From NCBI RefSeq assembly GCF_900104745.1, contig NZ_LT629732.1, forward strand, positions 5,567,981-5,631,980: a stretch of 64,000 bases of DNA, read 5' to 3'. A program made the position numbers and the translations under genes. A model generated the notes under the pieces. That model was not told the origin of the DNA. It searched no databases and saw only the letters and a list, made by a program, of their open reading frames with translations. This DNA is from Actinopolymorpha singaporensis. Lineage in GTDB: Bacteria > Actinomycetota > Actinomycetes > Propionibacteriales > Actinopolymorphaceae. Below, one piece after another: positions 9,178 to 22,968 of the stretch. Each line of letters starts with the position of its first letter. The first letter of the stretch is position 1.

Positions 9178-10404
9178 TCAGAACGGGACCGCGGGCAGGG
9201 TGACGTGCTCCGGCCGCAGCTCACCGACGTCGGCGGCGCCGAGCAGCTGCATGGTGCGGGTGATCTCGCTGCCGAGGATCTCGACGGCCCGCTGCACGCC
9301 GCGTTCGCCGCCGGCCATCAGGCCGTAGAGGTACGCCCGGCCGACCAGCACCGCGCGGGCGCCGAGCGCGCAGGCGGCCACGATGTCGGCACCGGTCATC
9401 ACTCCGGTGTCGATGTAGACCTCGGCCCGGTCGCCCACCGCGTCCACGACCTGGGGCAGCAGCTGCAGCGGCACCGGCGCGCGGTCGAGCTGGCGGCCGC
9501 CGTGGTTGGAGATCACCAGGCCGTCGACGCCGAGGTCGACCACCTTGCGGGCGTCGTCGACGTTCTGGATGCCCTTGACGACCAGCGATCCGGGCCACTC
9601 CTCCCGCATCCAGGCCAGGTCGTCGAAGGTCACCGTGGGGTCGAACATGTGGTTGATCAGCTCGGCCACCGTGCCCGGCCAGTCCGACAGCGAGGCGAAC
9701 GTCAGCGGCTCGGTGGTCAGCAGGTTCAGCCACCACGCCGGGTGCATGCCCATGTCGAGGATGGTCTTCGGCGTGAGGCTGGGCGGGATCGTCATGCCGT
9801 TGCGGACGTCCCGCAGCCGCGCGCCCGCGACCGGCACGTCGACGGTGAGCACCAGCGTGGTGTACCCGGCGGCCAGGGAGCGGTCCATCAGGTCCTTGCC
9901 GGCGGCCCGGTCGGTCCAGACGTACAGCTGGAACCACTTGTCGGCCTCGGGTGCGGCCGCGGCGACGTCCTCGATCGAGGTGGTCCCCATGGTCGACAGC
10001 GCGTACGGGATGCCGGTGCGCTGGGCGACGCGGGCCACGGCCGGCTCACCCTCGTGCTGCATCATCCGGGTGAAGCCGGTGGGCGCGAACGCGAAGGGGT
10101 ACGCCGACGGCCGGCCCAGGATGGTCGTGCTCGGGTCGACCTTGGACACGTCCCGCAGGATGCTCGGGTTGAACTGCAGCCGGTGGAACAACGAACGCGC
10201 GCGGTTCAGGGTGACCTCGCCCTCGGCCGCGCCGTCGGTGTAGTCGAACGGCGCCTTCGGCGTCCGCCGCCTGGCGATCGTCCGCAGGTCTGCGATGGTC
10301 AGGGCGCGGTCCAGGCGCCGCTTGGTGGCGTTCAGCTCCGGCCGGCGGGTACGCACCAGCGGCCTGAGCTCGGACCAGCGGGGCAGTCGGCGTTGCGTCG
10401 TCAT
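9178..10404 (-). CDS. lldD: FMN-dependent L-lactate dehydrogenase / alpha-hydroxy-acid oxidase
   Basis: Quinone-linked oxidation of L-lactate (or another L-2-hydroxy acid) to the 2-oxo acid, probably peripheral to the membrane. 408 residues from an ATG at 10404 with GGGAGAA seven bases upstream. The FMN-binding barrel is complete: PFAFAPTGF, the LYVWTDR and [18 protein letters not shown] motifs, a VVKGIQ lysine, the active-site SNHGGRQLD with His301 and Arg304, and the phosphate-binding [11 protein letters not shown]...GRAYLYG. The start overlaps the stop of the GntR-type regulator by ATGA, so the two are translationally coupled. An LldR-type operator lies before the regulator. L-lactate is therefore the best substrate guess; mandelate or glycolate remain possible. 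Confidence 0.9.
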
Positions 10405-11162
10405 CGGAGGGTTCTCCCTTGTCCGGCGGGGCTCTTCGGTCCGGGCGGATCGGTGGGCGGATCGGTGGGCGAATCTGTCTGCGGATCCGTGCGCGCATCG
10501 GTGGGCGCATCAGGGGGCAGGGCGAGCGCGCGGACCAGTCCCTGGCGGCCGACCTCCAGATCGTCGGCGAGAGCACGCTGGGCCTTCTCCACGCCGCGGT
10601 CGAGGTTGGCGAGCAGCTCCCGGTGCAGGCGGGCGAGACGGCCCGGGGTGAACTCCGGCCGGGCGAACGCGAGCAGGAACTGCAGCTCGTCCTCGCACGC
10701 GGAGTACGCCGTGAGCAGGCGGGGGTTGCCGGCCGCGGCCACCAGTGCGTGGTGCACGGCTCGGTGGGCAGCGGTCACGTCGTGCCAGGCGGCCGGCGGG
10801 CCGCCGGGCCGGTCGACGGCTTCCAGGGCGGCGACGGCGGACTCCACCGGTGCCAGGTCGCGGCCGCCGGCGAGGGCGAGCCGGAGCGCGCCGAGCTCGA
10901 TGACGGCGCGGTAGCCGAACAGCTCGTCCACCCGGTCGATGGTGAGGTCGGGAACGAACGCACCGCGATGGCGTACGTGGCTGAGCAGGTCGGCGGTCAC
11001 CAGGGCCCGCAGAGCCGCCCGCACGGTGTAGCGGCCGACGCCGAACTCCGCGGCGAGCTGCTCTTCCGACAGGTGCGCGCCCGGTGGCAGCGCGCCGTCG
11101 AGCAGCCGGGCACGCAGAACCTCCGCCACCTCCTCGGCGGCCGCCCGGCTGACCTCGCCCAT
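10401..11162 (-). CDS. GntR/FadR-type regulator, LldR-like
   Basis: FCD-subfamily GntR repressor. 253 residues from an ATG at 11162 ([20 protein letters not shown]). The frame is open for 25 more codons, but these overlap the operator and a terminator hairpin, and no Shine-Dalgarno supports them. The winged HTH covers residues about 10-75 ([25 protein letters not shown]), and the all-helical FCD domain about 85-215 includes the metal-type histidines in [15 protein letters not shown]. The last 35 residues are a Thr/Asp/Pro tail made by six 12-bp DNA repeats. It is coupled to the lactate dehydrogenase gene (ATGA overlap). The TTGTGTCACAA site 9 bases before the start matches the TNGTNNNACNA consensus known for LldR, so lactate-responsive autorepression is likely. 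The weak leader suggests a short 5' UTR. Confidence 0.9.
10443..10514. repeat. Six-unit 12-bp repeat at the regulator 3' end
   Basis: Two identical GGGCGGATCGGT units at 10443-10454 and 10455-10466, followed by four diverged 12-base units up to 10514. On the minus strand they encode Thr-Asp-Pro type tetrapeptides forming the C-terminal tail of the GntR-type regulator, just before its stop codon. Confidence 0.88.
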
Positions 11163-11170
11163 GCGCGAGA

Positions 11171-11181
11171 TTGTGTCACAA
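11171..11181. promoter_or_regulatory. LldR-type operator TTGTGTCACAA
   Basis: A perfect inverted repeat TTGTG-T-CACAA, 9 bases upstream of the regulator start. It fits TNGTNNNACNA, the recognition pattern described for LldR-type GntR regulators. Its place at the ribosome-binding region suggests autorepression of the regulator-lldD operon. Confidence 0.65.
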
Positions 11182-11205
11182 CCAGGCGGGAGCCCGGAAA
11201 CGACA

Positions 11206-11237
11206 GTGGCCGGCCCGGGCGAACCCGGGCCGGCCAC
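11206..11237. terminator. Strong tetraloop hairpin, mannosidase / regulator junction
   Basis: GTGGCCGGCCCGGG and CCCGGGCCGGCCAC form a perfect 14-bp stem with a CGAA loop. It lies 93 bases past the alpha-mannosidase stop and 44 bases before the GntR-type regulator start, so it should end the mannosidase transcript before the lactate operon. Confidence 0.85.
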
Positions 11238-11329
11238 CTACCGGCTCTGCTGTCTAGCGCCAACCGGCGATCCGACCGATGATCAGGCCGTCGAGGATCA
11301 GGCGATCGAGCGGCCAGGCGCCCACACGA

Positions 11330-14300
11330 TCAGGCGCGGGCGAACCTCAGGGTGAGGATCTGGAACGGCCGCAGAGCCACCTCGACCGCACCGTCGACCA
11401 CCTCGCGGTCGGCCAGCGGACGCTCGAGCAGGTCGGTCTCCTTGACCGACGCGACGCCGAACGACGTGGACACCCGGCCGGTCGCGCGGCCGCCGTGCGC
11501 CTCGTACAACCGGACCACGACGTCGCCGGACCGGTCGTCGGCCAGCTTGACGGCCTCGACCACCACGGCCGGGTTGTCCACCCGCACCAGCGGGGCGACG
11601 CCCTCGGCACCGGTCACCGTGCGCGCCGGGAGGTTGATGCGGTAGCCCTCCTCGACCGCCTCGGCGATGCCGGCGCCCGGCACCAGCGCGTACGACAGCT
11701 TGTGCACGCCCTGGTCGGTCACCGGGTCGGGCACCCGCGGGGCCCGCAGCAGCGACAGCCGCACCGTGGTGGTGGTGCCGCCGTCCTCACGGACGTCGCG
11801 GGTCACGTCGTGGCCGTACGTCGAGTTGTTGACCACTGCGTGGCCGTAACCCGGCTCGCCCACCTGGATCCACCGGTGCGCGCAGATCTCGAACTTCGCG
11901 TTCTCCCACGAGGTGTTGGTGTGGGTGGCCCGGAACACGTGCCCGAACTGCGTCTCCGAAGCGGACTGGTCGGCACGCACGTCCAGCGGGAACGCGACCT
12001 TGAGGAACTTCTCCTTCTCGTGCCAGTCGATCTCGTTGTCGACGTTGACCTGGCACTCGCCGACCCCGATGCGGATGGTCTGCCGGACCGTGGAACCGCC
12101 GAACGAACGGGTCACCGCCACCGCGGCCTCGGTCCCCGACTCCGACACGACCTCGATCGAGTCGACGTCGGTGAGGTCGCGCACCTTGTTGCGGTAGAAG
12201 GGGTCGACGTCCCAGGCGTCCCAGAGGTTCGGCGTGTCGACGTGCAGCTGCAGCAGGTTGCCGGCCGCACCGGGGGCGATCGCCTCCCGGCCGGACTCCA
12301 GCTCGACCACGGAGCTGAGCAGGCCGCGCTCGTCGACGGTCACCCGGACGAGACCGTTGTCGAGGACGACGGCGCCACCGTCACGGCGTACCGAAACCTC
12401 CGGCGCGTGCGAGGAGGCCTGCACGTCCGCGCCCATGGCGGGCACACCGAGGCGGTCGTGCGGTGCCGCGTTGAAGACGACGGTGGCGTCGCCCTCGCCG
12501 GCCAGGGCCCGCTGGGCGCGCTCGATGATCGCCTCCAGCTCCACCGCCAGCCGGGCGTAGGTCTCCTCGGCCTCGCGGTGCACCCAGTGGATCGAGCTGC
12601 CCGGCAGGATGTCGTGGAACTGGTTGAGCAGGACGGACTTCCAGATCCGGTCCAGGTCCTCGTACGGGTACTCCAGCCGGCCCGCGACCGCCGCCGCGGC
12701 GGACCACAGCTCGGCCTCGCGCAGCAGGTGCTCGCTGCGACGGTTGCCCTGCTTGGTCTTGGCCTGGGAGGTGAAGGTCGCCCGGTGCAGCTCGAGGTAG
12801 AGCTCACCGACCCACACCGGCGCCTTGGCGTACTCGTCGTGGGCGCGCTGGAAGAAGTCCGCGGGGTGCTCGATGGTCACCTTCGGTGAGCCCTCCAGGT
12901 CGGCGAGCCGCTCGGCCCGGCCGAGCATCTCCCGGGTGGGTCCGCCGCCGCCGTCGCCGTGGCCGAACGGCAGCAGCGACCAGGTGCCGCCGCCCTGGTC
13001 CTGGTAGTTGCGCTGGGCGCGGGCGAGCTCCTCACCGGTCAGCTGGCCGTTGTAGGTGTCGGCCGGCGGGAAGTGGGTGAACACCCGGGTCCCGTCGATG
13101 CCCTCCCACCAGAAGGTGTGGTGCGGGAACTTGTTGGTCTGGTTCCAGGAGATCTTCTGGGTGAGGAACCACTTGTTGCCGGCGAGCTTCACCAGCTGCG
13201 GCATCGCCGCGGAGTAGCCGAAGGAGTCCGGCAGCCAGACCGTCTCGGTCTCGATGCCGTACTCGTCCAGGAAGAACTTCTTGCCGTGCACGAACTGCCG
13301 GGCCATCGCCTCGCCGCCCGGCATGTTGCTGTCGGACTCGACCCACATCCCGCCGATGGGGATGATCTGGCCCGACTCGACGGCGGCCTTCAGCCGGTCC
13401 CAGACCTTCGGGTGGTGCTCCTTCATCCAGGCGTGCTGCTGGGCCTGGGAGAACGCGAACCTGAAGTCCGGGTGGTCGGCGGCCAGCGTGGTGACGTTGG
13501 AGACGGTACGGGCGACCTTGCGCACCGTCTCGCGCAGCGGCCACAGCCAGGCCGAGTCGATGTGCGCGTGGCCGACCGCGGAGATCTGGTGGGCACTGGC
13601 GTACGCCGGCTTGGCCAGCACCGGGGCGAGCTGCTCACGGGCGAGCGCGGCCGTACCCGGGATGTCGTCGTAGTCGAGGGCGTCCAGGGCGCGTTCGAGG
13701 GCGCGCAGGATCTCCGGCCGGCGCGGCAGGTCGGTCGGCAGCTCGTGCATCAGCTGCCCGAGGACCTCGATGTCGCGCAGCAGGTGGTAGACGTCGGCGT
13801 TGAACACCGCGAGCTCGGCCCGGCGGATCTCGTACATCGGCTCGGTGCCGGCGGTGGACTTGTCGCCCAGGTCGGTCGGCAGGAAGCCGGACTGGATCAC
13901 CGCGGGGTTGGCGGCTGCCTCGAGGTAGACCTGGAACGCCGCACCTCCCTTGGCCTTGGCGTGCTCCGACGGCGAGACGCCGCCGGCCGCGAGTCCGCTG
14001 ATCGGGAGGTAGATGTTGTCGGGGTTCAGGCCCTTGATCGGGTCACCGTCGGGGGTGTAGGCGAGCCCCTCGGCGGAGAAGCCGGGTCCGCCGCCGAAGC
14101 CGAGGTCGACGACCGCCTCCACCCGAAGGCCGTCCCACTCCTGGGGAACCTGCGCGGTCAGCCGGAACCAGCTGGTCCCCCACGGCGGGCCCCACTTGTC
14201 ACCCAGGGCGGCCGGCTTGAAGTCGGCCGCGAAGGCTTCGGTGACCGGGACCGGCTCACCGGGGGCATGCCACACCTCGATGTCGAGCGGGACGGTGTCG

Positions 14301-14377
14301 CCGTACAGAGCGGGGCGGAGCCGTTGCTGGAGAGCGCGTTCCAGCCGGGCTTCCACCAGCTTCTGGTCATCGTGCAT
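11330..14377 (-). CDS. GH38 alpha-mannosidase
   Basis: Retaining, zinc-dependent class II alpha-mannosidase (glycoside hydrolase family 38), releasing mannose from alpha-mannosides; no signal peptide, so cytoplasmic. 1015 residues from an ATG at 14377 with GGAGGA immediately upstream. The N-terminal beta domain covers about 1-260. The catalytic domain has the zinc motif GHAHIDSAWLWPL (His272, Asp274), WLPDSFGYSAAMPQL with nucleophile Asp384, KISWNQTNKFPHHTFWW and NQFHDILPGSSI. The C-terminal beta-sandwich domains run from about 640, including IDWHEKEKFLKVAFPLDV. It is downstream of, and probably controlled by, the LacI regulator at 14631; a CebR-like operator sits 44-57 bases before the start. 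Such enzymes act with ABC-imported mannosides, but no transporter is nearby. Confidence 0.95.
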   Translation of the reverse strand: MHDDQKLVEARLERALQQRLRPALYGDTVPLDIEVWHAPGEPVPVTEAFAADFKPAALGDKWGPPWGTSWFRLTAQVPQEWDGLRVEAVVDLGFGGGPGFSAEGLAYTPDGDPIKGLNPDNIYLPISGLAAGGVSPSEHAKAKGGAAFQVYLEAAANPAVIQSGFLPTDLGDKSTAGTEPMYEIRRAELAVFNADVYHLLRDIEVLGQLMHELPTDLPRRPEILRALERALDALDYDDIPGTAALAREQLAPVLAKPAYASAHQISAVGHAHIDSAWLWPLRETVRKVARTVSNVTTLAADHPDFRFAFSQAQQHAWMKEHHPKVWDRLKAAVESGQIIPIGGMWVESDSNMPGGEAMARQFVHGKKFFLDEYGIETETVWLPDSFGYSAAMPQLVKLAGNKWFLTQKISWNQTNKFPHHTFWWEGIDGTRVFTHFPPADTYNGQLTGEELARAQRNYQDQGGGTWSLLPFGHGDGGGGPTREMLGRAERLADLEGSPKVTIEHPADFFQRAHDEYAKAPVWVGELYLELHRATFTSQAKTKQGNRRSEHLLREAELWSAAAAVAGRLEYPYEDLDRIWKSVLLNQFHDILPGSSIHWVHREAEETYARLAVELEAIIERAQRALAGEGDATVVFNAAPHDRLGVPAMGADVQASSHAPEVSVRRDGGAVVLDNGLVRVTVDERGLLSSVVELESGREAIAPGAAGNLLQLHVDTPNLWDAWDVDPFYRNKVRDLTDVDSIEVVSESGTEAAVAVTRSFGGSTVRQTIRIGVGECQVNVDNEIDWHEKEKFLKVAFPLDVRADQSASETQFGHVFRATHTNTSWENAKFEICAHRWIQVGEPGYGHAVVNNSTYGHDVTRDVREDGGTTTTVRLSLLRAPRVPDPVTDQGVHKLSYALVPGAGIAEAVEEGYRINLPARTVTGAEGVAPLVRVDNPAVVVEAVKLADDRSGDVVVRLYEAHGGRATGRVSTSFGVASVKETDLLERPLADREVVDGAVEVALRPFQILTLRFARA

Positions 14378-14420
14378 GGGTCCTCCGAAGGAACCGGGAA
14401 GGTCACCCGGGGCCGACATA

Positions 14421-14434
14421 TGGGAGCGTTCCCA
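14421..14434. promoter_or_regulatory. LacI-family operator before the mannosidase gene
   Basis: TGGGAGCGTTCCCA, an almost perfect palindrome around a central CG, 44 bases upstream of the alpha-mannosidase start. It differs by one base from TGGGAGCGCTCCCA, the operator known for CebR, a LacI-family repressor of Streptomyces. The LacI gene at 14631-15719 is the obvious candidate to bind it. Confidence 0.72.
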
Positions 14435-14488
14435 CATTCGGGCCGGCGGGACAGGAATGTCTGGGGAGTGACGCTAGCCCAGCCCGAA

Positions 14489-14502
14489 CGCGCGGCCGCG
14501 CG
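14489..14502. other. Perfect GC palindrome between lacI-type and mannosidase genes
   Basis: A 14-base palindrome (CGCGCGGCCGCGCG) without a loop, about 130 bases after the LacI-type stop. As RNA it would need to open its centre to fold. It may help terminate the regulator transcript or may only reflect base composition. Confidence 0.35.
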
Positions 14503-14630
14503 GCGCCCACCGACGGCAACCTCGGGGGACGCGGAGCGACCCGACGACCACGGAACGTCGTCAGGGTGCCGGAATTCCGGGCGCGGCAGGCGGGACCGGT
14601 GAGACCGCCGACGGGTGGGGCTCGGGACGG

Positions 14631-15719
14631 CTAGGGCGACGACGGGACCGAGAAGCCCGAAGTCTCCGGCGGGAGCGACCCGAGCAGCGGGGTGGCCGCG
14701 CCGGTGCTCTCCCGCGCGATCAGGCGGTAGTCGGCGTACACCTCCTGCGGCCCGCCGTCGGCATCGGCGCGCCCGGCCGCACCGGTCCGCAACTGCCGGT
14801 GCAGCAGATCGACCGCGCACCCGGCGATCCGGCGCTTGTCCGGGGAGATGGTGGACAGCGTCGGCACACTGAACCGGCCGTCCTCGATGTCGTCGAAGCC
14901 GATCACCGCCACGTCGTAGGGTACCCGCAGGCCGCGCTCGGCGAGGGTGCGCAGGGCACCGAGAGCGAGCAGGTCGTTGAAGCAGAACACCGCGTCCGGG
15001 CGAGCGCCGGCGTCCAGCAGCTCCGCCATCGCCGCCGCGCCGTCCGCGCGGTGGAACCGCGGTGTGGAGGCGACCAGCCGCTCGTCGTAGCCGACCCCGG
15101 CACCGGCCAGCGCCGAACGGTAGCCACGCAGCCGCATCCGGGCCGTCACCCCGGCTGCACTGCGCTGGGCGCCGATCGCGGCGACCCGGGTGCGGCCCAG
15201 CCCGAGCAGGTGGGCGGTGGCGTCCCGGGCGGCGGCCACGTTGTCGATGAGCACGTGGTCGGCCGGGCCCCGGTGGATGCGCTCGCCCAGCAACACCATC
15301 GGCGTGGCGTCGGTGCGCTCGGCCAGGTCGGCCGCGGTGAGGGCCAGCGGGCTGAGCACCAGGCCGTCGATGAGCTGGTCGCGGATCCCGCCGATCACCT
15401 GGCGTTCGCGTTCGCGTACGCCGTCGGTCTGGTCCACCAGCACGGTCCAGCCGTGCGCGTCCGCGGCCTCGACCAGGTGGCGGGCGAGCTCGGCGAAGTA
15501 CGGCACGTCCAGCTCGGGGACGGCCAGCGCGATCACGCCGGTACGGCCGCGGCGGAGGTTGCGGGCGGACAGGTTGGGCCGGTAGTTGAGGGTGACGATC
15601 GCCTCCTCCACCCGGACCCGGGTCTCCGCCCGCACGTGGAGGTAGCCGTTGACGACGTTGGAGACCGTCTTCGGCGACACGCCGGCCAGCCGGGCCACGT
15701 CGCGCAACGTCGTACGCAT
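14631..15719 (-). CDS. LacI-family transcriptional regulator
   Basis: Sugar-responsive DNA-binding repressor, 362 residues from an ATG at 15719 with GGGAGGAA upstream. The N-terminal HTH and hinge are canonical (TLRDVARLAGVSPKTVSNVVNG, then YRPNLSARNLRRGRTGVIAL). The periplasmic-binding-protein-like effector domain follows (VPYFAELARHLVEAA, GLVLSPL, AVFCFNDLLALGALRTL, VIGFDDIEDG). The last 20 residues are a Pro/Ser tail without family similarity. It lies directly upstream of the GH38 alpha-mannosidase gene on the same strand, which suggests a mannoside or mannose-type effector. LacI-type palindromes occur at 14421 and 19471. Confidence 0.93.
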   Translation of the reverse strand: MRTTLRDVARLAGVSPKTVSNVVNGYLHVRAETRVRVEEAIVTLNYRPNLSARNLRRGRTGVIALAVPELDVPYFAELARHLVEAADAHGWTVLVDQTDGVRERERQVIGGIRDQLIDGLVLSPLALTAADLAERTDATPMVLLGERIHRGPADHVLIDNVAAARDATAHLLGLGRTRVAAIGAQRSAAGVTARMRLRGYRSALAGAGVGYDERLVASTPRFHRADGAAAMAELLDAGARPDAVFCFNDLLALGALRTLAERGLRVPYDVAVIGFDDIEDGRFSVPTLSTISPDKRRIAGCAVDLLHRQLRTGAAGRADADGGPQEVYADYRLIARESTGAATPLLGSLPPETSGFSVPSSP

Positions 15720-15800: not shown

Positions 15801-16988
15801 CTAAGGTGCCGAGCGTCCTGCCCGGAGCCGGGCCAGCGCGTACAGCTCGTCGAAGTCGGCCAGCACCACCGGCCAGGTGCAGCGCACCGGCTCCGTCGAC
15901 CGGTTGTACTTCGCGATGGTGCCGCGCAACGCGTCGTCACCGGCCAGCCGGGCCACCGCGGCGGCGAGTTCGGCCGGCGAGCCGCCGAGCAGGCCTTCCT
16001 TCTCCGAGACGACGAAGTCGGCCACGCCGCCGCGCTCGTACGCCACCACCGGTACGCCGGCCAGCCGGGCCTCCAGCGCGGCGATGCCGAACGACTCCCG
16101 CGTCGCGGGGGCGAGGAACACGTCAGCCGACCCCAGCACCGCACGCACCCGGTCCCGGTCCAGGCGGCCGGTGAGCTCCACCCAGTCGGTCATCGCGTGC
16201 CGGCGAAGGTAGCGCTGCATCAGCGGACGTGCGGGCCCGTCGCCGACGACCGTGGCGTACAACGGCACCCGTCCGCCCAGCGCGGACCGGGCGGCCCGCA
16301 GGATCGCCAGCAACGTCAACGGCTGCTTGCGCGGGGCAAGCCGGCCCACGGCTACCACGTGGACGCCGGGTCGGCGCCGTTCCACCTCGTCCGCGGGCTC
16401 GACCGGCCGCCACTGTGCGGTGTCGATGCCGTTCGCCACCACCCGCACGGGGACCCGGTCGCCGACCACCCGCCGGATCGGGGCGGCGGCCGCCTCGCTC
16501 ACCGTGGACGCCACCGCCGGCCAGCCGGTCCAGCCGGCGCCGGCGTCCAGGGCGCGGTACATGGCGCAGGTGGCGGGGTCCCACATGCTGTGCACGGTCA
16601 CCACGGTGGGCAGGCGCCGGCGGGCCGCCGCGCGTACGGCCGCCCAGCCGAACGGCGAGACGGCGCCGACGTGCACGTGGACGACGTCCGGGCGCAGCTC
16701 GGCGTACAACCCGCCGACGTGCCGACCGGTGCGCGGATGGACCGGCAGCTCCCATGGCAGCGGCGCCACCACCCGATGGACCGGCACGCCCGGCCCACCG
16801 GACCGGTCCCCCGCGGCGGCCGCCCAGGCCGCGTCCCCGCTGGCGCTGTCGGGGGTGCTGTCGGGGGTGGCGGTGACCACCTCGACCTGGTGGCCGGCGC
16901 GGTGCTGCATCCGGGTGAGTTCGGCGAGCTGGATCTCGATCCCGCCGAGCCGAGGCAGGAAGCAGTCACTCACGTGTACGACTTTCAC
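15801..16988 (-). CDS. GT4 glycosyltransferase, PIG-A/MshA-like
   Basis: Retaining GT-B glycosyltransferase of family 4, cytoplasmic, using a nucleotide sugar and probably a lipid- or inositol-type acceptor. 395 residues from a GTG at 16988 (VKVVHVSDCFLPRLGGIE) with GGGGGA six bases upstream; the GTG three bases earlier is an alternative. The N-terminal SDCFLPRLGGIEIQLAEL ... GHQVEVVT motif resembles the start of PIG-A/GlcNAc-phosphatidylinositol synthases. Donor-side motifs are ANGIDTAQW, VGRLAPRKQP and the E-x7-E element in RESFGIAALEARLAGVPVV. It is divergent from a PIG-L deacetylase and a flippase-like gene, which together suggest making and de-N-acetylating a GlcNAc lipid (inference). 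Confidence 0.88.
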   Translation of the reverse strand: MKVVHVSDCFLPRLGGIEIQLAELTRMQHRAGHQVEVVTATPDSTPDSASGDAAWAAAAGDRSGGPGVPVHRVVAPLPWELPVHPRTGRHVGGLYAELRPDVVHVHVGAVSPFGWAAVRAAARRRLPTVVTVHSMWDPATCAMYRALDAGAGWTGWPAVASTVSEAAAAPIRRVVGDRVPVRVVANGIDTAQWRPVEPADEVERRRPGVHVVAVGRLAPRKQPLTLLAILRAARSALGGRVPLYATVVGDGPARPLMQRYLRRHAMTDWVELTGRLDRDRVRAVLGSADVFLAPATRESFGIAALEARLAGVPVVAYERGGVADFVVSEKEGLLGGSPAELAAAVARLAGDDALRGTIAKYNRSTEPVRCTWPVVLADFDELYALARLRAGRSAP

Positions 16989-17293
16989 CACAGGTCCCCC
17001 GTGTCGACGTTCGTCGGGGCGATCCAGGCCGCCCCCGGTCCGGCTCGGGAGAGGACGCGGGGCAGCGGGTGTACGGTGACGGGCTCCGCGGCGGCGTGCG
17101 TCCGCCTCGCCCCGCGTTTCCCGTCGGCCATGTCGTCTGCGTAACCCACTTCGTCCACGTCGTCCAGGCCCTGTGCGCCGATCCGAGCCGTTCATGAGTA
17201 TCAGCACTGGCCCACGCCGTCGCCACTGGAGGATTCCCGGAGATGTCCCTGAGGACACGGCGGTTTCGTACCCACCCGTGCGAGGGTGGGGGG
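16989..17293. other. Divergent intergenic region, GT4 / PIG-L
   Basis: 305 bases between divergent genes, presumably with promoters for both. No clean palindrome, repeat or RNA gene is visible. The open frames crossing it have no recognisable similarity. Confidence 0.5.
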
Positions 17294-18199
17294 ATGGGCC
17301 GCACGTGCGTGTTCTTCCACGCTCATCCCGACGACGAGGCGTTGTTCACCTCGGGCACCATGGCCCGGCTCGCGGCGGAGGGGCACCGTGTCGTCCTGGT
17401 GGTCGCCACGGCAGGTGACCAGGGACTGGCCGCGCCGGAGTCGATCATCGCCGGGACGGGCCGCGGCACGTCGGGAGGCGCCGGACGCGGCTCCGGCGCT
17501 CCCGCTGACCGCACCGCCGCTCCCCGGCTCGGCGACGTACGCCTCGCCGAACTCCGCGCGTCCGCCGCGGCACTCGGCGTCGCTCGTGTGGAACATCTCG
17601 GCTACGCCGACTCCGGCCTCGATGGCCGGGCCGAACCCACCTGGGCGCCGGCCTTCGTCCGCGCCGACGTCGACGAGGCGGCCGGGCGGCTGGCCACGCT
17701 GCTGGCCGAGGAGCATGCCGACCTGGTGACGACGTACGACCCGGCCGGCGGCTACGGCCACCCCGACCACGTGCGGGTGCACCAGGTGGGCGCCCGGGCC
17801 GCCGAACTCGCCGGTACACCCACCGTCCTGGAGGCGACCGTCGACCGGGAGCTGCTGCTGCGCGCGCTGCGCCTGGTGGGGCGGGTCTACCGTTTCCCGC
17901 CGGAGTTCGACGTGAGCAGCTTCGAGCGCGCGTTCGCGCCCCGGCCGGAGATCACCCACCGGATCGACGTACGCCGGTACGCCCGAGCCAAGCGGGCGAG
18001 CCTGGCCGCGCACGCCACCCAGGCCACCGGCGGCGACTCGGTGCGGACCGTCGCGGCGTTGCGCCGGCTGCCCGGGCCGCTGTTCCGGCTGGTGCTCGGC
18101 ACCGAGTGGTACGTCCAGCGTGACCTCGCGCCCGGCACCCGGTTGACGCACCCGCTCGCCGGGCTCGCCACGTCCCGCACTCCCGGCGGTGCGCGGTGA
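17294..18199 (+). CDS. PIG-L family N-acetyl-sugar deacetylase
   Basis: Zinc-dependent LmbE/PIG-L deacetylase, which removes acetyl from GlcNAc-inositol, GlcNAc-PI or similar sugars. 301 residues from an ATG at 17294, preceded by GAGGGTGGGGGG; a start at 17243 would add 17 residues before the fold. The signature HAHPDDEAL (His11, Asp13, Asp14, Glu15) gives the zinc and general-base residues, and GGYGHPDHVRVHQ supplies the second histidine motif. Residues 60-85 are a Gly/Arg/Ala insert of low complexity. Its stop overlaps the next gene start as GTGA. It could be MshB-like, a mycothiol S-conjugate amidase-like paralogue or a lipid-sugar deacetylase; the flippase-like partner favours the last. 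Confidence 0.9.
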   Translation: MGRTCVFFHAHPDDEALFTSGTMARLAAEGHRVVLVVATAGDQGLAAPESIIAGTGRGTSGGAGRGSGAPADRTAAPRLGDVRLAELRASAAALGVARVEHLGYADSGLDGRAEPTWAPAFVRADVDEAAGRLATLLAEEHADLVTTYDPAGGYGHPDHVRVHQVGARAAELAGTPTVLEATVDRELLLRALRLVGRVYRFPPEFDVSSFERAFAPRPEITHRIDVRRYARAKRASLAAHATQATGGDSVRTVAALRRLPGPLFRLVLGTEWYVQRDLAPGTRLTHPLAGLATSRTPGGAR

Positions 18200-19407
18200 C
18201 GGCGACCGGAGACGCGTTCCGCCACCCGTGGGTGCGCACCGCGCTGTCGGTGGCCTCGGTCCTGGTCGCGATCGGACTGGTCGTGGCCCTGCCCTACATC
18301 GTGGGCATCGACTGGGGCATCATCTGGGCGCAGTTCGCCCGGCTGAACCCGTGGGTCGTGGTGGGCCTGTTCGCCCTGTGGGGTCTCGGCCTGTGGGCGT
18401 ACACCTGGGTGCTCACCGCGTCGCTGCCCGGGCTCAACCACCGCCAGGCGCTGACCCTGAACGCGGTCGGCAGCGCGGTGAGCAACCTGATGCCGTTCGG
18501 CGGGGCCGCAGGTGTGGCGGTCAACTTCGCCATGGCCCGGTCGTGGGGGTTCCGCAGCCACGCGATCGCGGTGTCCACGGTCGCCTCCGGCATCTGCAAC
18601 GTCCTGGCGAGGTTCCTGCTGCCGGCGGTCGGTCTGCTCGCGCTGCTGGCCGCGGGGCACGTGCCGGACGCCTGGCTCGCCGTCCCCGTGGGTACCGCCT
18701 CGCTGGCGTTGTTCGGGCTGGTCGCCGCCCTGGTGGTCGCGCTGCGCTGGGACAGTGCCGCCGAGGTCGTTGGCCGGGCGGCCGACCGTGCACTGCGGCT
18801 ACTCCCCCGCCGCATCCGGCCCGCCGACCACCAGGCCAGCACCGCTCTCGCCCGGCTGCGGGTAACGACCTCGGGACTGCTCAGGTCGTCGTGGCTGCCG
18901 ATGACCCTCGGGATCAGCACCTACCTCGCGCTGCAGGCCGCGTTGTTCTGCGCGTGCCTGCTGGCCACCGGCGCCTACCGGGGCGTCGGCGAGGCCGTCG
19001 CGGCGTTCGCCCTCGGCCGGCTGCTCACCACCGTGGTGGTCACGCCGGGCGGGTTCGGGATCGCCGAGGCCGGCACGGCGGCGGTGATGATCCACCTGGG
19101 CGGGGCGCCGGGGCCGGTCACCGCGGCGGTGCTGCTGTTCTCGATGTTCACGTTCGTACTGGAGGTGCCGCTCGGAGCGGCGTTCTGGCTGCTGCGGTCG
19201 CTGTCCGGCTCGCCCGCGACGGGCGACCAGCGGCTGCGGCTGGTACCGGCCCTGATCATGCCCCCGGCCGGGGGCGACCGCCGTACCGAGAACGTGGAGG
19301 GTGGAGAGGGCACGGACGACGCCGACCACGCCGACCACGCCGGCCACGGCGGCGGCCACTCGGAGCGCACCGACCGGGCCCCGCGACGCTCCGCGGCCGA
19401 GTACTGA
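18196..19407 (+). CDS. UPF0104 / lysylphosphatidylglycerol-synthase-type membrane protein
   Basis: Polytopic inner-membrane protein of the YbhN/AglD2 (UPF0104) family, related to the flippase domain of MprF. 403 residues from a GTG at 18196 that overlaps the PIG-L stop. About eight hydrophobic helices; family hallmarks include the NAVGSAVSNLMPFGGAAGVAVNFA segment and the late TVVVTPGGFGIAEAGTAAVMI segment. The last 70 residues are a charged, His/Asp-rich tail (DDADHADHAGHGGGH) probably in the cytoplasm, with a metal-binding look. Coupling to the deacetylase suggests it moves the glycolipid made by the GT4/PIG-L pair across the membrane (inference; substrates of the family are mostly unknown). 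Confidence 0.87.
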   Translation: MTATGDAFRHPWVRTALSVASVLVAIGLVVALPYIVGIDWGIIWAQFARLNPWVVVGLFALWGLGLWAYTWVLTASLPGLNHRQALTLNAVGSAVSNLMPFGGAAGVAVNFAMARSWGFRSHAIAVSTVASGICNVLARFLLPAVGLLALLAAGHVPDAWLAVPVGTASLALFGLVAALVVALRWDSAAEVVGRAADRALRLLPRRIRPADHQASTALARLRVTTSGLLRSSWLPMTLGISTYLALQAALFCACLLATGAYRGVGEAVAAFALGRLLTTVVVTPGGFGIAEAGTAAVMIHLGGAPGPVTAAVLLFSMFTFVLEVPLGAAFWLLRSLSGSPATGDQRLRLVPALIMPPAGGDRRTENVEGGEGTDDADHADHAGHGGGHSERTDRAPRRSAAEY

Positions 19408-19470: not shown

Positions 19471-19482
19471 GAAAGCGCTTTC
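19471..19482. promoter_or_regulatory. LacI-type palindrome before the oxidoreductase operon
   Basis: GAAAGCGCTTTC, a perfect 12-base palindrome with the central CG step typical of LacI-family operators, 59 bases upstream of the Gfo/Idh/MocA start. It differs from the site at 14421, so a different LacI protein encoded elsewhere may bind it. Confidence 0.55.
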
Positions 19483-19540: not shown

Positions 19541-20908
19541 GTGACGACCCCACCTCTGAGCTCCCCTCAGGCCGACCCCGGGGATACGACACCCCGCGTC
19601 GGGCTGGTCGGCGTCAACGGATACGGCCGTACCCACCTGCGCAACGCCGCCCGGCTGCAGGAGCAGGGGCTGCTGCGGCTGGTCGGGTACGCCGACGTCG
19701 CGCCGGACGCCGCCGCCGTGGTCGCCGAACACCTCGCCGCACGGGCGTACGACGGCCCACCGCCGCACGGTCACCGCACCCTCACCGACCTGCTGGCCAC
19801 CGACCGCCCCGACATCGTGGTGCTCGGCACGCCGATCCCCCTCCACGCGCAGATGATCGAGGAGGCGTTCACCGCCGGCGCCTCGGTCCTGGTGGAGAAG
19901 CCGCCGGTGGTGACCGTGCAGGACATGGACCGGTTGCTGGCCCTGCAGGACTCCGCCGGCTCTGCCGGCTCAGGTGACTCAGGCGACTCCGGCGGTCCGC
20001 TGTGCCAGGTGGGATTCCAGAACGCCCGGGCACCGGCCGTCCGCGCGCTGGCCCGGCTCGCCCGTGACGGCGCGCTCGGCGAGGTGGAGCACGTGGGGCT
20101 GGGCGGCCGCTGGTCGCGTCCGGACTCCTACTACGCGCGCACCGACTGGGCCGGCCGCCTCGTCCACGACCGCAGGTACGTCCTGGACGGAACGCTCACG
20201 AATCCGCTCGCGCACGGGCTGATGAACGCCCTGATCGTGGCCGGCGACCACGACGACAGCCCGGCCACGCCGACCGCGGTGCGGGCGGAGCTGTACCGCT
20301 GCCGGGACAGCATCGAGGGCGACGACACCGCGAGCGTCCGCGTGGAGACCGCCGAGGGCCGCACCGTCGTCGCGTCGGTCACGCTGTGCGCGCCGGTGCA
20401 GGTGCCGCCGTACGTGTTCGTCCGGGGCAGCCGGGCAACCGCCCGGGCGTACTACACGACCGGACAACTCACCCTGGAGTCCGCGCGCATCGCTCAGCCA
20501 CCGCCGGCAGCAGCCGTCCGGGCGGTCGAGGCGCTGGCCGCCGACGCGGCGCGCGCCGGCCGCGCGCCGGGTGACCCCGGGTCGCCCGATCTGCTCGCGA
20601 ATCTGGTCAATGTCGTCCGCGGTTACGACGATCGGCTCCTGTGTCCCCTTAGGATGACCCGAGGCTTCGTCCTCGCCCTCAACGGCATGTACGAGTCCGC
20701 AGGCAGACCCGGCCCCGTCTCGCCACGCTTCACCACCGTCCATGACGAGAACGGCGAGCGCTGGGTGCACCTGGTGGGCGTCGACGACCTCATCGAGCGC
20801 TGCGCCCGCGACGGGCTGTTGTTCTCCGAGGCCGGCGCCGACTGGGCCACACCCACCCGCGCGTTCTCCCTCGCGAACTACCGGAACTTCACTTCGTTCT
20901 CATGCTGA
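19541..20908 (+). CDS. Gfo/Idh/MocA family oxidoreductase
   Basis: NAD(P)-dependent sugar or polyol dehydrogenase. 455 residues from a GTG at 19541 with AGGAGG four bases upstream; the frame is open further upstream but without similarity. The N-terminal Rossmann fold has VGLVGVNGYGRTHLRN, and the family EKP motif occurs in VLVEKPPVV with its catalytic-type lysine. The C-terminal beta-sheet domain follows (HVGLGGRWSRPDSYYART, DGTLTNPLAHGLMNALI). A Ser/Gly/Asp low-complexity run (SAGSAGSGDSGDSGG) interrupts the fold near residue 145. Its stop overlaps the next start by 7 bases, so it is coupled to the GH65-like gene. Together they look like a catabolic pair for an oxidised or unusual sugar; the substrate is unknown. 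Confidence 0.9.
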   Translation: MTTPPLSSPQADPGDTTPRVGLVGVNGYGRTHLRNAARLQEQGLLRLVGYADVAPDAAAVVAEHLAARAYDGPPPHGHRTLTDLLATDRPDIVVLGTPIPLHAQMIEEAFTAGASVLVEKPPVVTVQDMDRLLALQDSAGSAGSGDSGDSGGPLCQVGFQNARAPAVRALARLARDGALGEVEHVGLGGRWSRPDSYYARTDWAGRLVHDRRYVLDGTLTNPLAHGLMNALIVAGDHDDSPATPTAVRAELYRCRDSIEGDDTASVRVETAEGRTVVASVTLCAPVQVPPYVFVRGSRATARAYYTTGQLTLESARIAQPPPAAAVRAVEALAADAARAGRAPGDPGSPDLLANLVNVVRGYDDRLLCPLRMTRGFVLALNGMYESAGRPGPVSPRFTTVHDENGERWVHLVGVDDLIERCARDGLLFSEAGADWATPTRAFSLANYRNFTSFSC

Positions 20909-22968
20909 TGGACCGCTATCGCATCGTCGCGCGCCACAACGTCCGGCGGACCTCCGCCGACCCGCTGGAGCCGCTCACGGTCGGCAACGGCGAGTTCGCC
21001 TTCACCGCCGACGTGACCGGCCTGCAGACGTTTCCCTCGTTCCACGCCGAAGGTATGCGGCTGGGAACCCAGGCGCAGTGGGCCTGGCACACCGCGCCCA
21101 ACCCGGAAGGCTACGCGCTGGAGGAGTCCTTCGAGGACTACGCGACGGCGGCCGGGCGCTCGGTGCCGTACTCCACCACCGGCCCGGACTTCGGCGACCC
21201 GTCGGCTCGTTCCCGCGCCAGGCTGGCCCGCCAGTGGCTGCGGGAGAACCCCCACCGCATCGACCTCGGCCGGATCGGGTTCGTGCGCCCCGGCGGACAA
21301 CTGCTGCAGCTGTCGGAGCTGGGCGCGGTCAGCCAGCGGCTGGACCTGTGGCGTGGCCGGATCGAGAGCCGGTTCGAGCTGGACGGGACGCCGGTCGAGG
21401 TGACGACGGTCTGCGACCCCGAGCTCGACCTGCTCGCGGTACGCGTGGAGTCGCAGTTGCTGGCGCGCGGTGAGCTCGCGGTGGGCACCCGCTTCCCGTA
21501 CGCCGTGGGCGACTGGAGCGAGCCGTGCGACTGGGATTCGCCCACCAGCCACCTCTCCGAGGTGCACGTGCGCGACAACCGCGCCGACATCCGCCGGGTA
21601 CTCGACGACGACGTGCACCACGTGGCGCTCACCTGGTCGGCCGGTGCGGCGCTGAAGCAGCTGGGACCGCACGAGTTCATCGTGCACGCCGACGGCGTGG
21701 GCGTCCTCGAACTCACCGTCGGCTTCTCCCCCGCCCCGGTCGAGGAGGCGCCGACGGTGGCCGCCGTGCTTGCCGCGGCCGAGGTGTCCTGGACGGAGTT
21801 CTGGTCGACCGGCGGGATCGTCGACCTGTCCGGCTCCACCGACCCGCGGGCCGGGGAGCTCGAACGCCGGGTGGTTCTGTCGCAGTACCTCACCGCGGTC
21901 AACTGCGCGGGCTCGACCCCGCCGCAGGAAACCGGTCTGGTCACCAACAGCTGGCGCGGGAAGTTCCACCTCGAGATGCACTGGTGGCACGCGGCCCACT
22001 TCGCGCTCTGGAACCACCCGGCCCTGCTCGAACGCAGCCTCGGGTGGTACGACAAGGCGCTGTCGGCCGCCCAGGAGACCGCCCGGCTCCAGGGCTACTC
22101 CGGGGCCCGCTGGCCCAAGCAGGTCGGGCCGGAGGCGCGGGAGAGCCCGAGCGACATCGGCGCGCTGCTGGTGTGGCAGCAGCCGCACCCGATCTACTTC
22201 GCCGAGCTGGTCTGGCGGCGCCGGCCGTCCCGGCGTACGGCGGAACGCTTCGCCCGCCTGGTCTTCGAGTCGGCGGCCTTCATGGCGTCGTACGCCACCT
22301 GGGATCCGCGCCGGGAACGCTTCGACCTCGGACCGCCGGTGGCGTCGGCGCAGGAGAAGGCCTACCCACTGCGCCGCGAGGCCCGCAACCCCGCGTTCGA
22401 GCTGGCGTACTGGCGATGGGGCCTGCAGAACGCACAACTGTGGCGCGAACGCCTCGGCCTGGCCCGCGTACCCGCCTGGGACGCGGTGGCGAAGCATCTC
22501 GGGCCGCTGCCGGAACGCGACGGCCGCTACGTCGAGCTGGAACACCCGGTGACCGAACGCGAGGGCCACCCGACGATGGTGGGTGCCCTGGGGTTCGTGC
22601 CCGACGTCGGCCTGGCCGACGTCGACCTCATGCGGACCACGCTGCGCGACGTGCTCGACCGCTGGGAGTGGTCGGACACGTGGGGCTGGGACTATCCCCT
22701 GCTGGCGATGACCGCCTGCCGGGTCGGCGAACCCCGCCTCGCGGTGGAGGCACTGCTGCTGGACACGCCGAAGAACCACTACCTCGGCAACGGGCACAAC
22801 TTCCAGCGCCCGGGCACGTTGCCGCTGTACCTCCCCGGCAACGGCGGTCTGCTGTACGCCGTGGCGATGATGGCGGCCGGCTGGGACGGCGCCCCCGAGG
22901 GTCCGGCGCCGGGGTTCCCCGATACCGGGTGGCAGGTGCGGTCGGAGAACCTCGCGCCCGCACCCTGA
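20902..22968 (+). CDS. GH65-like (alpha/alpha)6-barrel protein
   Basis: 688 residues from an ATG at 20902, overlapping the oxidoreductase gene. The layout is that of clan GH-L type enzymes: an N-terminal beta-sandwich (EPLTVGNGEFAFTADVTGLQTF ... LDLWRGRIESRFELDGTPVEVTTV) to about 300, then an (alpha/alpha)6 barrel with GKFHLEMHWWHAAHFALWNHP, GARWPKQVGPEARESPS and DTWGWDYPLLAMTACRVGEP. No signal peptide, so cytoplasmic. It is not a standard maltose or kojibiose phosphorylase. In the barrel, Glu of HLEMHWW and Asp of WGWDYP are plausible acid/base residues. Coupling to a Gfo/Idh/MocA enzyme suggests the oxidoreductase acts before or after hydrolysis, as in redox-assisted glycoside cleavage (inference). 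Confidence 0.78.
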   Translation: MLMDRYRIVARHNVRRTSADPLEPLTVGNGEFAFTADVTGLQTFPSFHAEGMRLGTQAQWAWHTAPNPEGYALEESFEDYATAAGRSVPYSTTGPDFGDPSARSRARLARQWLRENPHRIDLGRIGFVRPGGQLLQLSELGAVSQRLDLWRGRIESRFELDGTPVEVTTVCDPELDLLAVRVESQLLARGELAVGTRFPYAVGDWSEPCDWDSPTSHLSEVHVRDNRADIRRVLDDDVHHVALTWSAGAALKQLGPHEFIVHADGVGVLELTVGFSPAPVEEAPTVAAVLAAAEVSWTEFWSTGGIVDLSGSTDPRAGELERRVVLSQYLTAVNCAGSTPPQETGLVTNSWRGKFHLEMHWWHAAHFALWNHPALLERSLGWYDKALSAAQETARLQGYSGARWPKQVGPEARESPSDIGALLVWQQPHPIYFAELVWRRRPSRRTAERFARLVFESAAFMASYATWDPRRERFDLGPPVASAQEKAYPLRREARNPAFELAYWRWGLQNAQLWRERLGLARVPAWDAVAKHLGPLPERDGRYVELEHPVTEREGHPTMVGALGFVPDVGLADVDLMRTTLRDVLDRWEWSDTWGWDYPLLAMTACRVGEPRLAVEALLLDTPKNHYLGNGHNFQRPGTLPLYLPGNGGLLYAVAMMAAGWDGAPEGPAPGFPDTGWQVRSENLAPAP

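Follow-up and report, generated by a model that had tools for sequence, protein, structure and literature searches.

What three adjoining genes of Actinopolymorpha singaporensis accomplish together is the question raised by a locus within a 64,000-nucleotide stretch of contig NZ_LT629732.1 (positions 5,567,981–5,631,980 of the forward strand; hereafter, the window). The trio consists of a GT4 glycosyltransferase (395 amino acids, minus strand, 15801–16988), a zinc N-deacetylase of the PIG-L (LmbE) family (301 amino acids, plus strand, 17294–18199), and a UPF0104/LPG_synthase_TM membrane protein predicted to be a lipid flippase (403 amino acids, plus strand, 18196–19407). A first-pass annotation of the window had proposed that these genes make a glucosaminyl lipid and export it. 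That is also the best explanation we can infer from the evidence assembled here, and we assign a probability of roughly 0.72 to the reading that the trio synthesizes and translocates a glucosaminyl membrane lipid, whatever its acceptor. Its experimentally studied counterpart is the gpgSDF system of P. aeruginosa.

A conserved and co-inherited unit

The three open reading frames lie where the first-pass annotation had placed them, with GT4 divergent from PIG-L and with PIG-L and the flippase gene sharing a GTGA, in which the TGA stop of the former ends at 18199 and the GTG start of the latter stands at 18196. The GT4 reading frame stays open to 17258, and the starts found in relatives (MKVVHVSDCFLPRLGGIE) correspond to a GTG at 16988 or 16991; for PIG-L, comparison with relatives best supports the ATG at 17294 and lends no support to the alternative at 17243. 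Between the starts so assigned lies a divergent intergenic region of about 305 bp (16989–17293), where a simple scan found no sigma-70-like promoter; a scan for terminators likewise gave nothing.

The trio is a real unit, whose linkage is far above chance. Among 57 genomes of relatives in the Propionibacteriales, a flippase homologue (E < 1e-35) occurs in 15, and all 15 possess GT4 (E < 1e-44) and PIG-L (E < 1e-49) as well, the three genes standing together. The other 42 have no close homologue of GT4 or the flippase, no GT4 match being better than 1e-20, and two of them have a PIG-L match (1e-32 and 1e-28) with the rest missing. Within one genus, probably Kribbella, all three genes are present in 7 of 18 genomes, and close GT4 and flippase homologues are lacking from the remaining 11. 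When 84,980 species genomes were scanned with the flippase and the best 80 named loci examined, 77 displayed the divergent GT4 and PIG-L genes with the flippase gene following PIG-L, one was cut by a contig end, and two had the flippase alone. Conserved linkage, without which the first-pass proposal would have been refuted, is thus found in close relatives and in the wider set. A class-wide sample yielded a flippase homologue in 43 of 394 genomes (31 of 138 genera), with the full trio at 14 of the 20 flippase loci read from it, and in GTDB Streptosporangiaceae, a family that also takes in Thermomonosporaceae and Nocardiopsaceae, 103 of the 200 genomes, spread over 38 of the 68 genera, had the homologue.

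Three gene orders recur, each with overlapping genes, and the overlaps are mostly of 4 bases. In Actinopolymorpha and Streptosporangiaceae, GT4 diverges from a PIG-L–flippase pair (overlapping in Actinopolymorpha); in the Kribbella-like genomes and one other, PIG-L diverges from a flippase–GT4 pair (overlapping in the Kribbella-like genomes); and in Nocardioides-like genomes, flippase, GT4, and PIG-L follow one another in the same direction and overlap in turn. Pairwise distances of the three proteins across 89 loci correlate at r 0.965–0.971, against a maximum of 0.32 in 500 permutations. The GT4 distance from Actinopolymorpha to Streptosporangiaceae is 0.58, and that to Kribbella, a member of the same order, is 1.14. 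This closer kinship with Streptosporangiaceae suggests a history of horizontal transfer or of differential loss.

Families, folds, and catalytic residues

The glycosyltransferase matches Pfam GT4 domains at 80.7 and 80.2 bits. Its structural model (predicted local distance difference test, pLDDT, 88) has a GT-B fold of the PIG-A/MshA/BshA kind, for which the closest solved counterpart is BshA (Z 35.8, 3.2 Å, 356 residues), followed by MshA (Z 35.5, 2.8 Å, 364 residues), with cyanobacterial sucrose-phosphate synthase tied with these top matches (Z 35.1) and PimA at Z 34.0. E298-x7-E306, R216, K221, and H133 are invariant among relatives, and the GT-B fold together with the E-x7-E motif places the protein among the GT4 glycosyltransferases. 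Because both BshA and MshA are UDP-N-acetylglucosamine (UDP-GlcNAc) enzymes, their closeness in fold supports GlcNAc transfer as the predicted chemistry. The protein nonetheless lies outside the models of named subfamilies, with 51.9–53 bits for the MshA model TIGR03449 (cut-off 462.5) and 47.4 bits for the GpgS model NF053787 (cut-off 480); the latter is passed by no glycosyltransferase in the whole genome, a single contig of 6,403,569 bases.

The deacetylase scores 99.4 bits against PF02585 (cut-off 28.2) and matches no other deacetylase family, COG3233 included. The motifs HPDDE and YDxxGGYGHxDH are invariant among its relatives, and the proline of the family's GHPDH is an arginine in some of them. 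In MshB, the corresponding motifs bind the zinc and contribute Asp, Tyr, and His to catalysis. MshB is the nearest protein both in sequence and among solved structures, although the score against the MshB model TIGR03445 (141–145 bits) stays below the cut-off of 224.35. The genome contains ten PIG-L-family genes altogether. In two Actinopolymorpha genomes, a second PIG-L, about 55% identical, occurs with neither GT4 nor flippase alongside (L062:9578–10396 and L063:9315–10064).

The membrane protein matches LPG_synthase_TM (PF03706) at 82.5 bits (cut-off 33.4), as expected of a UPF0104/YbhN-type flippase. The resemblance to MprF-type flippases that the first-pass annotation had noticed is borne out by the fold: the AlphaFold model (pLDDT 82) matches six MprF flippase-domain structures with Z 19–21 over about 290 residues, and the next unrelated chain reaches 5.5. 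Unlike MprF, the protein carries no aminoacyl-phosphatidylglycerol synthase domain, and against the model of the bifunctional enzyme (NF033480) it scores 25.4 bits (cut-off 600), matching the N-terminal part only. A sequence search of the PDB with the flippase profile returned no match. The His/Asp-rich C-terminal tail (residues 369–403; plus strand, 19300–19404), which had been singled out as unusual, is present, with the His/Asp-rich stretch itself at residues ~369–385, but it is hardly notable: the stretch is absent from A. pittospori and from orthologues outside Actinopolymorpha, much reduced in A. rutila, and predicted to be disordered (pLDDT <50). Such a disordered and unconserved segment is rejected as a metal site; it is lineage-specific and probably not functional.

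Comparison with known systems

The closest parallel is gpgSDF, described in 2025, in which GlcNAc-phosphatidylglycerol (GlcNAc-PG) is made first and is then converted to glucosaminyl-PG (GlcN-PG); GlcNAc-PG builds up when gpgD is mutated, both lipids are missing from a gpgS mutant, and the operon expressed in E. coli yields both, its flippase activity being putative (PMC12713373). The trio shares with gpgSDF the combination of a GT4 enzyme, a deacetylase, and a UPF0104 flippase, and the same proposed order of reactions. It differs in that GpgD belongs to COG3233 and not to PIG-L/LmbE, in that its GT4 enzyme falls outside the GpgS model, and in its divergent gene order. Membership in gpgSDF is rejected, since only the flippase fits. 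Given these differences in deacetylase family and GT4 subfamily, the trio appears to work like gpgSDF without being a member of it.

In hexSDF of C. difficile, which makes an aminohexosyl-hexosyldiradylglycerol and has a two-component system alongside (PMC10128005), a glycosyltransferase, a deacetylase, and an MprF-like flippase are again combined, and a two-component system likewise accompanies the trio at Kribbella-like loci. However, the transferase HexS carries the annotation of a monogalactosyldiacylglycerol synthase, the deacetylase HexD belongs by annotation to the polysaccharide deacetylases, and the lipid is a neutral glycolipid. With deacetylases drawn from COG3233, the polysaccharide deacetylases, and PIG-L, the three systems suggest that amino-sugar-lipid modules of transferase, deacetylase, and flippase arose more than once. 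A eukaryotic parallel is found in the opening of glycosylphosphatidylinositol (GPI) synthesis, where GT4 transfer of GlcNAc to a lipid is followed by PIG-L deacetylation. The trio, in contrast, has enzymes of bacterial soluble type and an MprF-like flippase, and phosphatidylinositol (PI) is only a candidate acceptor. The same two reactions are performed by MshA/MshB and BshA/BshB, which are closest to the trio in solved folds and sequences but act on soluble acceptors and have no flippase.

Carrier genera and type-PIV phospholipids

Beyond Actinopolymorpha, the trio is carried by Streptosporangium, Planobispora, Planomonospora, Microbispora, Nonomuraea, Microtetraspora, Herbidospora, Acrocarpospora, Sphaerisporangium, Planotetraspora, and Thermocatellispora, and it is present in the Thermobispora bispora genome (4,189,976 bases). 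Several of these carriers have reported polar lipids of a particular kind. S. roseum, of phospholipid type IV, has phospholipids that are positive for ninhydrin and for sugar (PMC3035251); Microbispora, likewise of type IV, lacks PG and contains unknown glucosamine compounds (PMC8049491), and one Microbispora has two ninhydrin-positive phosphoglycolipids (PMC7338456); in Nonomuraea, such phosphoglycolipids are a major lipid (PMC10694255); T. bispora is assigned to type PIV, glucosamine phospholipids being present in traces and PG absent (PMC3035289); and phosphatidylglycolipids are present in Actinopolymorphaceae (PMC6113628). With carriers known for unidentified glucosamine-containing or ninhydrin-positive phosphoglycolipids, the trio becomes a testable candidate for the type-PIV lipids, for which the literature searched contained no paper naming any gene.

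Proposed mechanism and alternative acceptors

In the proposed pathway, the cytosolic GT4 enzyme would move GlcNAc from UDP-GlcNAc onto a phospholipid head group in the membrane. PIG-L, whose catalytic residues are in place, would then remove the acetyl group to leave a free, ninhydrin-positive amine and hence a more cationic lipid, which the MprF-like protein, given its fold, may carry to the outer leaflet. If the product is a glucosaminyl lipid, a phospholipid acceptor is slightly favored. PI would be the likelier acceptor, with PG the alternative, because at least one carrier, T. bispora, is reported without PG; carriers of this sort argue for PI or for another lipid. That the product is the type-PIV glucosamine phospholipid is a possibility somewhat short of even odds. 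The most specific form of the proposal is unlikely: it takes that phospholipid to be glucosaminyl-PI, so that GT4 and PIG-L would be bacterial equivalents of the two opening steps of GPI anchor synthesis, with an MprF-like flippase acting after them.

A number of observations weigh against a glucosaminyl phospholipid as the common product of these loci. The flippase homologue is alone at 6 of the 20 loci read from the class-wide sample, and at L067 and L094, the two exceptions among the 80 named loci, it is without partners, profile searches having found neither GT4 nor PIG-L there, with tblastn in agreement. The comparison with lipid types covers carrier genera and draws on polar-lipid reports that are mostly based on thin-layer chromatography. 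Moreover, N. corallina, which carries the trio (L132), is listed with unidentified glycolipids and phospholipids and with no named ninhydrin-positive phosphoglycolipid (PMC10694255), a report that leaves the fit to type-PIV lipids good but not proven. Finally, the neighbors of some trios hint at polyprenyl-phosphate chemistry: in Kribbella-like loci, GT4 is followed by genes for DprE1-like (381 bits) and DprE2-like (103 bits) proteins and for a DPPR synthase that passes its cut-off at 218 bits, and in Nocardioides-like loci a PpgS/DPM-like GT2 gene lies upstream of the flippase. On that alternative, a polyprenyl phosphate or polyprenyl-linked sugar would be the acceptor, and the flipped, glucosamine-modified carrier would decorate a cell-wall glycan, much as galactosamine decorates mycobacterial arabinan. 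We judge it improbable, as no such neighbors surround the trios of Actinopolymorpha and Streptosporangiaceae and the nearest GT4 folds use inositol phosphate, malate, or PI; to our knowledge, moreover, the polyprenyl-phosphate monosugar synthases known so far are GT2 enzymes, which also counts against it.

A neutral glycolipid such as hexosyl-diacylglycerol could instead be converted to an aminohexosyl glycolipid, for which hexSDF is the precedent (PMC10128005) and with which the three unidentified glycolipids listed for N. corallina (PMC10694255) would accord. The chemotaxonomy of the carriers, which indicates ninhydrin- and sugar-positive phospholipids, makes this outcome improbable too. Most remote is a thiol pathway of the mycothiol or bacillithiol kind, composed of GT4, PIG-L, and a cysteinyl-tRNA synthetase (CysRS)-like ligase: 18 of the 80 loci have an additional CysRS-like gene no more than about 10 kb from the trio, and MshB is the nearest sequence to PIG-L. 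Yet the ligase candidate passes the cut-off for cysS and not that for MshC, is missing from a Planobispora genome that has the trio (and is for that reason rejected as a required fourth gene), and a soluble route would give a membrane flippase no role. The first-pass annotation had conceded that these could be the mycothiol genes if the genome held no others; a separate set exists, with mshA at C1:524215–525432 (632.6 bits, cut-off 462.5) and mshB at C1:6266789–6267652 (378.8 bits, cut-off 224.35), and the trio, whose GT4 and PIG-L score 53 and 141 bits on the same models, is not the mycothiol set. It is likewise rejected as a bacillithiol set, its scores for BshA (75 bits) and BshB2 (45 bits) being far below the cut-offs.

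Neighboring genes

Within the window, a LacI regulator gene occupies 14631–15719, and a perfect palindrome resembling a LacI-type operator (GAAAGCGCTTTC, 19471–19482) lies between the flippase gene and a Gfo/Idh/MocA oxidoreductase gene. The latter is overlapped by the gene of a 688-amino-acid protein (20902–22968) that has no Pfam match at 1e-5 and is kept in all six Actinopolymorpha genomes. The oxidoreductase, the 688-residue protein, the LacI regulator, and an alpha-mannosidase are rejected as parts of the module, being conserved in Actinopolymorpha only and not with the trio elsewhere.

Other lineages have their own neighbors. In nearly all Streptosporangiaceae trio loci, a BTAD/AAA regulator of AfsR/SARP type (~1,130 amino acids) is found 3′ of the flippase gene (L068:11193–14573 and 69 others). 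At Kribbella-like loci (L053, L055, L060, and L054), a two-component system adjoins PIG-L, and DprE1/DprE2-like and decaprenyl-phosphate phosphoribosyltransferase genes follow the flippase–GT4 pair (in L053 at 10210–15569). One Nocardioides-like genome has a PpgS/DPM-like GT2 gene upstream of the flippase in both of its trio copies (L057:5604–6413 and L058:11587–12354). The extra CysRS-like gene (family N15; L087:6300–7520, L082:2615–3952, and 16 other loci) scores 366 bits against cysS (cut-off 340) and reads KIRKH in place of KMSKS; the genomes that have it also hold an ordinary cysS as well as another CysRS-like gene, probably mshC. At the Nonomuraea soli locus L094 (1–9911), where the flippase is kept, an apparent nonribosomal peptide (siderophore-like) cluster with transporters occupies the GT4/PIG-L site.

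Implications for actinomycete membranes

The glucosamine phospholipids of Lechevalier's type PIV have served for decades to define actinomycete genera. For these lipids, the trio offers three candidate genes open to test, along with a predicted reaction sequence and a distribution that can be checked. Cationic amino-sugar lipids are expected to reduce the net negative charge of the membrane, and they may thereby affect tolerance to cationic antimicrobials in genera that themselves produce antibiotics.

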